NCBI RefSeq assembly: GCF_022637455.1
Contig: NZ_CP093341.1
Coordinates: 2,046,001 to 2,110,000 of the forward strand
Length of the DNA: 64,000 nt
Direction: 5' to 3'
DNA from: Lysobacter sp. S4-A87
Lineage (GTDB): Bacteria; Pseudomonadota; Gammaproteobacteria; Xanthomonadales; Xanthomonadaceae
In this document: one piece after another, positions 37,782 to 45,019 of the stretch
Numbering within the stretch: the stretch's first letter is position 1
Layout: every line of letters starts with the position of its first letter
Translations under genes and position numbers: made by a program
Notes under the pieces: model-generated
Told to the model about the DNA's origin: nothing
Databases searched by the model: none
Seen by the model: the letters and a program-made list of their open reading frames with translations, nothing else

Positions 37782-38978
37782 CTACACCCCGGGCCTCCCG
37801 CGTAGCTCCTGCCTCACATCAAAGCGAATGTCGTTCGCCTGCGGAGCCAACGAGTGCGCCAGAGGATTGGCGAAGCCCTCGATCAACGAGATCAGCCGCG
37901 GATCGGGCATAGGCACACGCACGATCTTTCCATTGACCAGCGCCACCAGCGTGTTGCCGGGCCCGAGGATATACAGCGGCGTCTCGTGATAGAGCGGCGG
38001 CCTGATGGCCATCACCGACAGACGGAGCTTTGCCACCTTCCGGCGCAGGTCGAATGAAACGATGTGGACGCGCACCCCGCCGGTCTGGCCCAGGAGCTGG
38101 GTGGTGGCGTCATAGGTCTGGCCCGGTTGCCATTCGTTGTTGTTGCTGGCCAGGTTCGAAGCGATCACCGTCGAGTTCGGATTGGCGGGTTCGTGGATCA
38201 ACACCGCAGCCCGCGGTATCGCGCTATCGAATCCTTCCGGGATCCGGAACTCCACGATCACGCCACCCAGTTCCGCTGCAAGGAAGCCTGGCGTGTCCGG
38301 ACTGCTCAGCGCCACCAGGTCGATGTCGTAGATGCCGCTGCTGTTCTTTGATGGCGGATGCCAGACGCGACTGGCCGGCATCCACTCCATGCGCTGCAGG
38401 TTGGCGGCATTGAGCAGTGGGCCGCGTGGAGAGAACCGGTGGCCGGCATCGCTGAGGACATTCATCGCACTCATGATGTCGTGCTGATCGTAGTACTCAC
38501 CCGGCATCGACCAGCTCATCAGCGTTCGTGTGGACTGGTCGAACGAGTGATCAAGGCCCAGCACGTGGCCGATCTCGTGTCCAAGGAATGTCACGTTGGC
38601 GTCCTCGGGGGCGCACAGCACGCCGCCCTGGGCGCCACCATCCCCGAGACCGACGTTGAAGATCGCGACCACGGCCGCGAATTGCGACGTATCGACATCA
38701 CTGAACGCGTCGATGGCGCCCTTGATCTTGTCCCATCGACCCGGATGCGCGGCGATGAAGTCATCCCGGGTGGTATCGATGGTGGTCCATCCGAACACCT
38801 GCGACCCATCGAGGTTGATCGCGCCCAGCGATGCCGCCGTAAAGTAGTCGTTGACGCCGCCGGTGCCGCGGCGGACAAGCAGGTCGTTGTAGAACGAGGT
38901 CGGATTGGGTTCGGTGTGTGCGGTGTCGTTGAACTTGCATAACAGGACTGCGAGTTTCTGGGGTCCTTTGATTGCCAT
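37782..38978 (-). CDS. metzincin-like zinc metalloprotease without signal peptide (398 aa)
   Basis: Zinc motif HEIGHVLGLDH (His134, Glu135, His138, His144) matches HExxHxxGxxH, followed by a Met-turn candidate at Met169 (YDQHDIMSAM). The region before it (TSFYNDLLVRRGTGGVNDYFTAASLGAINL) resembles the pro-catalytic part of M6/reprolysin-like proteins. The C-terminal 200 residues are beta-rich. The N-terminus MAIKGPQKLAVLLCKFND has no export signal, so secretion would need another route or the enzyme is cytoplasmic. It is an isolated gene. Confidence 0.82.
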   Translation of the reverse strand: MAIKGPQKLAVLLCKFNDTAHTEPNPTSFYNDLLVRRGTGGVNDYFTAASLGAINLDGSQVFGWTTIDTTRDDFIAAHPGRWDKIKGAIDAFSDVDTSQFAAVVAIFNVGLGDGGAQGGVLCAPEDANVTFLGHEIGHVLGLDHSFDQSTRTLMSWSMPGEYYDQHDIMSAMNVLSDAGHRFSPRGPLLNAANLQRMEWMPASRVWHPPSKNSSGIYDIDLVALSSPDTPGFLAAELGGVIVEFRIPEGFDSAIPRAAVLIHEPANPNSTVIASNLASNNNEWQPGQTYDATTQLLGQTGGVRVHIVSFDLRRKVAKLRLSVMAIRPPLYHETPLYILGPGNTLVALVNGKIVRVPMPDPRLISLIEGFANPLAHSLAPQANDIRFDVRQELRGRPGV

Positions 38979-39247
38979 GACTGTCCCTCTGCGGTGCGTC
39001 CAAAGACCGCCGTGGAGAGCCCCCGGCGGGTGCAGATGTAGTGACGAAGTCGATCGGGCGAACCGGACAAGCGACGCGTTCGCTGTCGCCGTGGCGGAAT
39101 GCCTGGGCGAGGTACTCGCGGCACGGCCGAGGCCGCCGCGTGCCGTCGGTCGGCTGGTGTCAAAGCCTGTTCGGAAGCATCCCCCACTACCCTCCCCGGC
39201 AGCCCTCGGGCAGACTCATGCCCTGCCGACACAGCAAGGGTATGGGG

Positions 39248-39994
39248 ATGCCGTTTCTGGGGATGGGACTGCACATCATGATTGCAGTCTGTTTTGCCGT
39301 GCATGCCGTGCGAAATGGGCACGACCGCTACTGGCTGATCATTCTTTTCATGTTCCCGCTGCTTGGGAGCCTGGTGTACGCGCTGGCGATCTGGTTGCCG
39401 TCGATGCGCTACACACAGCAGGGCCGTGCCGTCACGCGCGGCGTCGACCGCCTGCTCAATCCCGGGCGCGAGCTGCGCGAAGCGCAGGACGCCTTTGACA
39501 TCGCCGCCACTGTCGACAACCGCCTGCGCCTGGCCGACGCCCTGGTGGGCGACAAGCGCCCGGCCGAGGCGATCGAGCACTACCGCAACGCCCTGCGCGG
39601 CATCCACAGCGACGACCCGGACATCCAGGTGCGACTGGGCCAGGCCCTGCTCGAATCCGGCAGGCCCGCCGAAGCGCGCCAGCTGCTGGACGATCTGATC
39701 AAGCGCAAGCCGGACTTCCGCTCACCGCAAGGGCACCTGGTCTACGCCCGCGCAGTCGCTGCCGAAGGCAACCGAGACAAGGCGAAGGAAGAGTTCGAGA
39801 CGCTGATCGGGTACAGCAGCGGCTTCGAAGCGCAGGCGTACTACGCGCAGGCGCTGGTGGACTGGGGTGAGCGCGAACGCGCGCAAGCCGTGTGCGAAGG
39901 TGCGCTGGCGCAGGCGAAACGGTTGCCTGGGTATTCGCGCAGGATGAACAAGGATGCGTTGGATCGATTGAAGCGGCTTGGCGCGAAACAGTAA
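39248..39994 (+). CDS. membrane-anchored tetratricopeptide-repeat protein (248 aa)
   Basis: Two N-terminal hydrophobic helices (about residues 5-20 and 28-46, YWLIILFMFPLLGSLVYALAIWLP) anchor the protein. Several TPR-like helix pairs follow (TVDNRLRLADALVGDKRPAEAIEHYRNALRG, DIQVRLGQALLESGRPAEARQLLDDLI, EAQAYYAQALVDWGERERAQ). It probably scaffolds other proteins at the inner membrane. AAGGG 7 bases upstream favours the ATG at 39248 over 39242. Confidence 0.78.
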   Translation: MPFLGMGLHIMIAVCFAVHAVRNGHDRYWLIILFMFPLLGSLVYALAIWLPSMRYTQQGRAVTRGVDRLLNPGRELREAQDAFDIAATVDNRLRLADALVGDKRPAEAIEHYRNALRGIHSDDPDIQVRLGQALLESGRPAEARQLLDDLIKRKPDFRSPQGHLVYARAVAAEGNRDKAKEEFETLIGYSSGFEAQAYYAQALVDWGERERAQAVCEGALAQAKRLPGYSRRMNKDALDRLKRLGAKQ

Positions 39995-40023: not shown

Positions 40024-40152
40024 ATGTTCGTTAGTACGCTCGCAGCTGTAGCGCTGCTGGCTCTCATAGATGTGCACTATGACGCCGCGGTTGCCTGCGG
40101 TCAGTCCCAAAGTATCTCTTCTGGAAGCTTGCTGCTGACCTGGTCTTCGTAA
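40024..40152 (+). CDS. short ORF (42 aa) at the boundary of a lower-GC gene
   Basis: An ATG with a strong GGGAGGG-like site 5 bases upstream opens MFVSTLAAVALLALIDVHYDAAVAC, a plausible hydrophobic N-terminus. The frame then enters the 3' end of the convergent restriction gene (from 40101) and stops at 40152. It could be the truncated start of a native gene cut when the restriction gene arrived, or a chance ORF. Confidence 0.3.
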   Translation: MFVSTLAAVALLALIDVHYDAAVACGQSQSISSGSLLLTWSS

Positions 40153-41528
40153 GTCGAGTCCACGTGCTTCAAGAAGTCCTCAATAGTTGGAAGACCGGCC
40201 GCAAGCTGCAACTTCGTGGTCTCGTCCACAAGATTCGAGCCGTTGATGAGCATCACCGGATACTGGTCCTCATAGATCTCTCGCTGCACGGCGTCGGAGA
40301 AGAATGACGTCGTAACGTATGCCCCTAACCACCCTCTTCGAAGGCGAGCGACCGTTCGAGCAATGTGCACTCCACCCGTTGGAGTGTCGACCTTCTCGCA
40401 CTTGGCCTGGCCAAGCACTACTAGTTTGGTACGTGAGATGCCCTCGCCAACGTCAATGCGGCCCACGAAATCTAGACCTCCGTCGCCCGTCCCTCGCGTC
40501 AGCCATCCGCGGCGATAGCTAGCTCCTGTATCTCGGATCATCGACTCGCAGGCTAGGCTCGCCAGCGCCTCGAATCGATGCTTCCTTCCATCGTAGAACG
40601 AGTAGATCTTGTCTAACGCCTTTCGCTTTGTTGACTCCGTTGGCGCCACCTGCTCCTTCTTGGAGACGATGTGATACCGCGCGACGCGTCGCCTCAATCC
40701 TTCCAACTCAGCGCTTCCATACTGGATCCACTCCCTCCAAGCTTTCGGCGCCAGAGCATTGGCCGCCGTCAAGTCAGCACCCTTCTCTCTTCGACTCGCG
40801 ATCCAAGCCATATCCACACTCTCTTTCTCGTCAGTGAGCGACACGATTGCGAGATCGAATAGGTAGTTGGTGAAGTATCCGCCATTGCGCTCGGAGTACT
40901 GCGTTACACGCTTCGCACCTGTTATGACGGACAGCCCAGCGAATTCCTTGTATCCCTTTCGCGACGACCTGAACAGAAGGATTGGCGCTGCGCGCTCCCT
41001 CTTCTTTCGGTCGGGTGACGTATGGAGATCGAACTGCTGCAACAGCTGCCGATTTCCCTTTGGATAGCCAGGATCGAGATCGGGCGTCTTGTTGTCACCA
41101 AAGTAGCGAGCAAATCCCGCATCTGGCTCGATGGTGTCGTGCCAGGGATTCTCCGCCGACCCCAGCTTGTTCTCATTGCTCGCCAGCAGAATCACACTGA
41201 GTCGTTCACCGTCCCTGGCAAAGGTCGGCGCGGGCGAGTTGATGCCTCGCTCCAGCTGCAGGGTGGGCATACCATCGACCGAGACGATGTGATGGAAGTT
41301 CGGCAGGCCATCCACCGTCTCCTCATCGGGAGCCATGGGTCGCGCGTACCGGTAGAAACATCCCATTCTGAATTTCTTCACAAGCCCCCCAGCTTGTTTA
41401 TTCGCCTCCCCCAAGGCCCCACGGCCACCAGGCAGATGCAGTTCGACGCGGAAACTATTGCTTAGCACGTAATAGGCCGGAAAGATCGGCCGCGACGGCG
41501 GTGTCGCAACCAAAAAAAGAGCGGCCAT
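40101..41528 (-). CDS. probable modification-dependent restriction endonuclease (AspBHI/MspJI-like)
   Basis: The C-terminal nuclease domain has a PD-(D/E)xK-type core: GTGDGGLDFVG with Asp353, then VLGQAKCEK with Gln374 and Lys376. This D...QxK spacing of 21 residues is the same as I recall for MspJI (Asp334, Gln355, Lys357). The N-terminal half (PWHDTIEPDAGFARYFGDNK, GNRQLL, APILLFR) resembles the AspBHI N-terminal SRA-like domain that reads modified cytosine. It would cleave incoming 5-methyl- or hydroxymethyl-cytosine DNA. G+C is visibly lower than in neighbours, suggesting transfer. The ATG at 41528 lies inside the aceE terminator; a GTG at 41468 is an alternative start. No methylase is adjacent, as expected for such enzymes. 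Confidence 0.78.
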   Translation of the reverse strand: MAALFLVATPPSRPIFPAYYVLSNSFRVELHLPGGRGALGEANKQAGGLVKKFRMGCFYRYARPMAPDEETVDGLPNFHHIVSVDGMPTLQLERGINSPAPTFARDGERLSVILLASNENKLGSAENPWHDTIEPDAGFARYFGDNKTPDLDPGYPKGNRQLLQQFDLHTSPDRKKRERAAPILLFRSSRKGYKEFAGLSVITGAKRVTQYSERNGGYFTNYLFDLAIVSLTDEKESVDMAWIASRREKGADLTAANALAPKAWREWIQYGSAELEGLRRRVARYHIVSKKEQVAPTESTKRKALDKIYSFYDGRKHRFEALASLACESMIRDTGASYRRGWLTRGTGDGGLDFVGRIDVGEGISRTKLVVLGQAKCEKVDTPTGGVHIARTVARLRRGWLGAYVTTSFFSDAVQREIYEDQYPVMLINGSNLVDETTKLQLAAGLPTIEDFLKHVDSTYEDQVSSKLPEEILWD

Positions 41529-41538
41529 TAGGCCGCTC
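41512..41538 (-). terminator. intrinsic terminator of aceE
   Basis: On the minus strand GAGCGGCC, loop TAAT and GGCCGCTC are followed by seven T's (plus-strand 41512-41518). It lies 20 bp past the aceE stop. It overlaps the first codons of the longest reading frame of the restriction gene, so that gene must be transcribed from its own promoter or by read-through. Confidence 0.9.
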
Positions 41539-41558
41539 TCTCCGAGTAACGTCTCTGC

Positions 41559-44258
<2,700 letters not shown>

Positions 44259-44698
44259 GCGTATCGCGGCCCCTATTGGCCGCGCCTCGTGTGGGGCGGG
44301 GGTTTAGAGTCCGGATTCTAACAGGGCGACACCGGTGGACTAGCCCGTAACGGTGGGCTGGAGCGTTGCGACCAAAGGGGGATTGAAAGCTTGAAATCCC
44401 TACGGGCGCGAATGGGGCGGCTGTGGCTCGGCCACGCTGCGCTCCGTCATACCGCGAAGGCGGGAACCCGGCGACTTTGCCGCTTCGGTCGTTCGCACCG
44501 TCGGGGGCGTTAGGGCTTCGTTATCCCCAGCCGCCCCGTCATTCCCGCGAAGGCGGGAATCCATGGACGTTGGCTGTCCCGGCGGGACAGGAAAGACGCT
44601 CTGCCGTCATCCCGGCGAATGCCGGGACCATTTGCGCTGCTTCTGCCAGGGCAGGAGCGACGTCCTTGGATCCTCGCCTTCGCGGGGATGACGATCCA
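44259..44698. repeat. repeat-rich intergenic region with four GTCATNCCCGC palindromes
   Basis: This 440-bp gap between aceE and the EF-hand gene has no credible gene. It holds four related short palindromes: 44445-44467 (degenerate), 44538-44563 (GTCATTCCCGC GAAG GCGGGAAT), 44606-44630, and 44667-44692 in the opposite orientation. The same family recurs at 47206-47231, 50144-50169 and 50187-50213. The flank ACGTCCTTGGAT is shared between 44661 and 50182, so a composite of two palindromes has spread. Confidence 0.75.
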
Positions 44699-45019
44699 TT
44701 ACCGGCTCGACGGCGCGATCGGCACGCCCAGGACTTCGCGCTGGAAATTGAGCATCTCCTCGCGGGTCACGCGCTCGTCGTGGTTGGCGTCCATGTGCTC
44801 GAACAGCGAGCGGGCGCCGGCGGCGTGTTCCATCGCGGTGACCACGCCGTCGCCGTCCAGGTCCATCGGCATCGGGTCGCTCGGCGGCGGGGGCGGTGCG
44901 GCGGGGGCCATGGGGGCCGGCGCGGGAGTCGGCGTCGGCGGCGGGGACGACTGCGCCCAGAGCCAGGCGGGTACGGCGACAATGGTCAGCATCAGCGCTA
45001 TCCGGACTGCGGCTTTCAT
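44699..45019 (-). CDS. exported EF-hand protein (106 aa)
   Basis: Signal peptide MKAAVRIALMLTIVAVPAWLWA, then a Pro/Ala-rich linker (residues 24-51) and two EF-hand loops: DLDGDGVVTAMEH and DANHDERVTREEM. Both have acidic residues at positions 1, 3, 5 and 12. It probably binds calcium in the periplasm. GGGAGG lies before the ATG at 45019. The start codons of this gene and the longest frame of the TonB receptor overlap on opposite strands. Confidence 0.85.
   Translation of the reverse strand: MKAAVRIALMLTIVAVPAWLWAQSSPPPTPTPAPAPMAPAAPPPPPSDPMPMDLDGDGVVTAMEHAAGARSLFEHMDANHDERVTREEMLNFQREVLGVPIAPSSR

Follow-up and report, generated by a model that had tools for sequence, protein, structure and literature searches.

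A predicted MspJI-type restriction endonuclease of Lysobacter sp. S4-A87 and a probable family-wide defense hotspot on the 3′ side of aceE

The closest described relative of the protein considered here is MspJI, for which the residues involved in recognition of modified cytosine have been described: the flipped 5-methylcytosine (m5C) is held in a pocket formed by W101, D103, Y114, F115, G116, and D117, E65 contacts the orphan guanine, and K173 is the proposed reader of the purine at +3 (PMC4499157). The MspJI gene lies immediately next to a cytosine methyltransferase gene that is now considered inactive (PMC3874153).

A related gene lies on the minus strand of a 64,000-nucleotide stretch of the Lysobacter sp. 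S4-A87 chromosome (herein the window). An initial annotation had described an open reading frame (ORF) placed against the terminator of aceE; the ORF listing confirms the frame (40101-41528, 475 aa), and the gene does sit at that position. The features of the locus are:

40101..41381, minus strand: predicted MspJI-type m5C-dependent restriction endonuclease, 426 aa, GTG start (phmmer, Pfam, PADLOC, Foldseek; start from relatives)
40716..41207, minus strand: RE_AspBHI_N, predicted SRA-like modified-cytosine recognition domain (Pfam match 108-271; PF18062 genome coordinates; residue mapping)
40224..40550, minus strand: predicted Mrr-type PD-(D/E)xK nuclease domain, D353..Q374-x-K376 (Pfam Mrr_cat 327-435; MspJI alignment)
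41382..41510, minus strand: intergenic leader from the aceE terminator to the nuclease start (sequence reading; sigma-70 scan)
about 41511..41540, minus strand: aceE terminator hairpin, GAGCGGCC TAAT GGCCGCTC, followed by a T run (read from sequence)
41559..44258, minus strand: aceE, pyruvate dehydrogenase E1, a core gene and the fixed border of a variable site (family-wide strong match)

In relatives from six family genomes the protein starts MKRFRMG or VKRFRMG, so the most likely start is GTG 41381, with GGGGGG immediately upstream, which would give a protein of 426 aa. The longest frame begins inside the aceE terminator, where the annotation had placed the start; this is rejected because the relatives begin about 49 residues later, and GTG 41381 lies about 130 bp past the terminator end. 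The short ORF at 40024 had been read as a native gene cut short, which is unsupported since its 42 codons gave no significant match in the related loci compared. Elsewhere in the window, an ORF at 37782-38978 carries a metzincin-type zinc motif (GHEIGHVLGLDH) and is probably a secreted metalloprotease; upstream of aceE (44423-44700), the recurrence of REGGNP in ORF translations suggests GGNP-type short interspersed repeats.

The earlier assignment of the protein to the MspJI/AspBHI type holds in two of the checks proposed with it, a profile search for both domains and a comparison of the predicted structure with MspJI and AspBHI. Pfam RE_AspBHI_N is matched past the cut-off by the N-terminal half (E = 1.6e-25), Mrr_cat by the C-terminal half (E = 6.9e-7); the PADLOC model mREase_II (methyl-directed type II) is matched at E = 2.2e-140, and an NCBIfam search with the nuclease gave no match. 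The best phmmer match among PDB sequences is MspJI (4f0p; E = 1.5e-90, nuclease residues 55-473 on 25-454; 41.8% identity over 416 aligned residues), followed by AspBHI (1.6e-21) and LpnPI (0.019). D353, Q374, and K376, already singled out in the annotation, align exactly with the catalytic D334, Q355, and K357 of MspJI, and all six pocket residues (W129, D131, Y142, F143, G144, and D145) are identical to those of MspJI (Lysobacter residues are numbered in the 475-aa frame). By residue mapping, the equivalents of E65 and K173 are identical as well. MspJI Q33 is replaced by R63 and S90 by N118, asparagine standing at the latter position in AspBHI and LpnPI too, and loop 78 is short of its MspJI counterpart by nine residues; because of this shortening, K191, the putative counterpart of K173, is less certainly placed than the other residues.

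An AlphaFold monomer model was built from 12 sequences (pLDDT 76), an earlier one from six close relatives (pLDDT 44) having been set aside. Foldseek again returns 4f0p as the best match (E = 3.5e-41, TM 0.60) and AspBHI next (8.8e-21), and it also matches the N domains of 4oc8 and 4rzl; the TM of 0.60 goes with a loose placement of domains in the model, which counts against the explanation we prefer. Sequence and model together indicate a full-length MspJI-type m5C-dependent restriction endonuclease, nearer to MspJI than to AspBHI because of the E values (1.5e-90 versus 1.6e-21) and the catalytic QxK, as opposed to the ExK of AspBHI. The predicted protein combines the PF18062 SRA-like domain, the Mrr-type D..(Q/E)xK nuclease, and the 5mC pocket that characterize the MspJI family (type IIM), to which it is an addition. 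It has neither the ExK pair of the AspBHI subgroup, present in 4oc8 and at loci L028, L158, and L159, nor AspBHI-like length and sequence. It also differs from a type II restriction-modification system, as a search confined to the C5 type (PF00145), as distinct from N4- and N6-methyltransferases, found no cognate methyltransferase in the genome (G000).

The low base composition of the gene relative to its neighbors, part of the initial annotation, is borne out: GC is 56.8% (window, 67.7%) and GC3 67%, against a GC3 of 91% for aceE and 82% for the adjacent TPR gene, and a GC this low is reached by just 0.3% of the sequence's 1281-bp stretches. The chromosome (3.89 Mb, one contig) holds one copy. 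None of the 11 congeneric genomes carries the gene, and MspJI/AspBHI-type genes occur in 8 of the 297 family genomes and in 2 of 397 other genomes spread across the phylum; a class-wide search (369 genomes) gave no further close relative, and a related-locus search of genome contigs led to only two loci. Close relatives, at 61-73% identity, come from other Lysobacteraceae genera and include those of Cognatilysobacter (Lysobacter) tabacisoli and Arenimonas daejeonensis. The unusual composition and the absence from 11 congeners make it probable that the gene was gained by transfer, as had been proposed. Signs of a transposon or integron are lacking: neither flanking direct repeats nor terminal inverted repeats were found around 40101-41540. 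Phage origin was rejected (viral contigs contain no relative, and phage records one 27% match), as was plasmid origin (plasmid relatives are distant only, with <40% identity). The TPR gene beside the nuclease (39041-39994) has its best congener homologs (60-63% identity) 31-39 kb off on the 5′ side of aceE, implying that this neighbor either is a separate paralog or has itself moved.

The bordering gene, aceE, is present in nearly the whole family: 287 of 297 genomes give a strong match (E ≤ 1e-200). We compared the positions of aceE in 150 genomes with those of the 66 C5-methyltransferases in the same genomes, among the matches listed. Within this set 26 of the 66 lie within 12.5 kb 3′ of aceE, against about 0.3 expected under uniform scatter (binomial probability about 2e-44), and the 50 kb 5′ of the gene contain none. 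The comparison was then extended to about 15 kb of 3′ sequence from 80 genomes (L058-L137) and to the 5′ side in 20. On the 3′ side even the commonest gene family, Vsr, reaches no more than 13 of the 80 genomes. Among ORFs of at least 150 aa within 10 kb of aceE in 20 matched genomes, those common to at least five genomes number 0 of 162 on the 3′ side versus 34 of 124 on the 5′ side, and mean GC is 59.3% versus 68.7%. At E ≤ 1e-10, 239 PADLOC models were matched with 132 proteins of the 3′ side (a figure with heavy overlap between models, and not a gene count) and none with 95 proteins of the 5′ side, the longest ORFs (one on the 3′ side, five on the 5′ side) being left out of this comparison. 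Pfam matches on the 3′ side comprise C5-methylases, RE_AspBHI_N, AIPR, Z1, DUF4420, TdeIII, ResIII, AbiH, a Schlafen-type helicase, and GHKL ATPases, together with ordinary genes. This side also holds five of the family's eight MspJI/AspBHI-type genes (G000, G035, G001, G279, and G123); those of G087 and G164 lie elsewhere.

In congeners some genes recur 3′ of aceE at differing distances, which points to core sequence further out, and a single distal border was not found; the site in G181 may be near-empty. The conserved border gene, the variable content, and the enrichment in defense genes indicate that the Lysobacteraceae (Xanthomonadaceae) have a family-wide defense hotspot 3′ of aceE. A search of open-licence main texts found no literature naming aceE as a defense hotspot, and its novelty is provisional because of that scope. 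If the hotspot is real, the 3′ end of aceE would provide a simple address for unknown defense systems in hundreds of genomes; many uncharacterized genes lie there next to known restriction genes.

A search of the whole chromosome with PF00145 found zero C5-methyltransferases; of 14 control genomes, 10 were positive in the same search, as were 147 of the 297 family genomes. This absence fits an enzyme that would harm a host with m5C in its target context. It is very probable, by homology, that the protein is a stand-alone MspJI-type restriction endonuclease. The SRA-like domain at its N terminus would flip a modified cytosine (5-methyl- or 5-hydroxymethyl-) out of the duplex and hold it in the conserved pocket; the nuclease at its C terminus, of the Mrr type with D..QxK, would make a double-strand cut a fixed distance to the 3′ side. 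Retention of the equivalent of K173, the proposed purine reader, makes a target near mCNNR probable; this specificity may not hold, given the differences at the Q33 and S90 equivalents and the shorter loop 78. Incoming phage or plasmid DNA carrying m5C from a previous host would be restricted, and the cell's own chromosome, with no detectable C5-methyltransferase, should offer few or no targets and so be safe. The gene would have entered on a short segment immediately following the aceE terminator, a site of repeated defense-gene acquisition, probably by recombination within flanking core genes since flanking repeats were not found. An enzyme of this type, 42% identical to MspJI and with a shorter specificity loop, could be of use in m5C mapping.

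The lack of a partner methylase had been described as usual for such enzymes. This is correct for the present chromosome and fails as a general rule: a C5-methyltransferase gene adjoins the MspJI/AspBHI-type gene in five of the eight family genomes (G087, G239, G001, G279, and G123), and Vsr also stands beside the pair in G087 and G123 (by Pfam) and in G001 and G279 (by homology). Four of the five adjoining methyltransferases (G087, G239, G001, and G279) retain the FxGxG, PCQ, and ENV motifs. At L159 a proteobacterial AspBHI-like gene overlaps its methyltransferase gene (1384 versus 1387), a Thalassospira plasmid carries an adjacent nuclease and methyltransferase after the Z1, PD-(D/E)xK, and AIPR genes of an MZA-like locus, and MspJI itself has such a neighbor (PMC3874153). 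These arrangements would be expected if the Lysobacter nuclease were the surviving half of a linked C5-methyltransferase/MspJI-like/Vsr module, in which the nuclease of relatives works with, or is checked by, the methyltransferase. Orientation, spacing, and methyltransferase type are, however, inconsistent across the loci (mostly 30-37% mutual identity), so common attraction to defense islands may account for part of the adjacency; G035 and G164 have the nuclease with PF00145 absent among the matches listed; and the window holds no methyltransferase remnant. We therefore consider descent from such a module unlikely. The broader proposal, that an m5C nuclease and an active C5-methyltransferase, often with Vsr, commonly form a unit attacking methylation other than the partner's, with the nuclease of the window alone in an m5C-free genome, appears equally doubtful. 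Why nucleases that cut at m5C should recurrently pair with enzymes that make it is a puzzle that can be tested in the relatives named above.

Across the loci compared, MspJI/AspBHI-type genes recurrently adjoin C5-methyltransferase (and Vsr) genes (L024, L025, L023, L027, L028, L159, and L162), and AspBHI-like nucleases pair with a methyltransferase whose motif IV is SPEC, not PCQ. In two genera, overlapping genes for a Methyltransf_35 protein and a GHKL ATPase lie between aceE and the methyltransferase/MspJI-like genes (L025:10313-12681 and L027:9631-12002); this pair has no PADLOC match and is possibly an unrecognized part of the defense locus.

A further reading is that the acquired gene is in decay and either silent or without activity. 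A sigma-70 consensus scan of both strands of the leader found no site, which is weak evidence in such a genome and is nevertheless counted against the stand-alone functional enzyme we favor; decay does occur in the group, as the G279 homolog is broken into two frames. Here, by contrast, the frame is full-length and uninterrupted, all catalytic and pocket residues are kept, and the gene is 61-73% identical to full-length relatives with intact motifs, so that decay seems quite improbable. A conventional nuclease for unmodified DNA, or a reader of another modification such as 5hmC or phosphorothioate, is the least probable reading: SRA-like pockets can take 5hmC, as is known for this family (PMC3874153), but the pocket corresponds nearly one-for-one to that of m5C-reading MspJI, and a cutter of unmodified DNA would need a protecting methyltransferase that the genome lacks.

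The predicted stand-alone endonuclease is thus best compared with MspJI of Mycobacterium sp. JLS (PDB: 4f0p, 4f0q, 4r28), with which it shares the full-length domain order at 41.8% identity, the W/D/Y/F/G/D pocket, the E65 and K173 equivalents, and the catalytic D..QxK. It differs in the nine-residue shortening of loop 78 and in the changes of Q33 to R and S90 to N, and its gene stands without the C5-methyltransferase neighbor of the MspJI gene. AspBHI and LpnPI (PDB: 4oc8, 4rzl) belong to the same family and share the SRA-like N domain, Mrr_cat, and the asparagine at the S90 position; they are more distant in sequence (E only 1.6e-21 and 0.019), and AspBHI has ExK where the Lysobacter protein has QxK. 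The aceE site resembles the core defense hotspots of Pseudomonas aeruginosa and the defense islands of Escherichia coli and Stenotrophomonas in having a fixed core border and unrelated defense genes in different strains (PMC11680222 and the literature it cites); unlike them, its distal border is not fixed, and it is bordered, family-wide, by the 3′ end of aceE.
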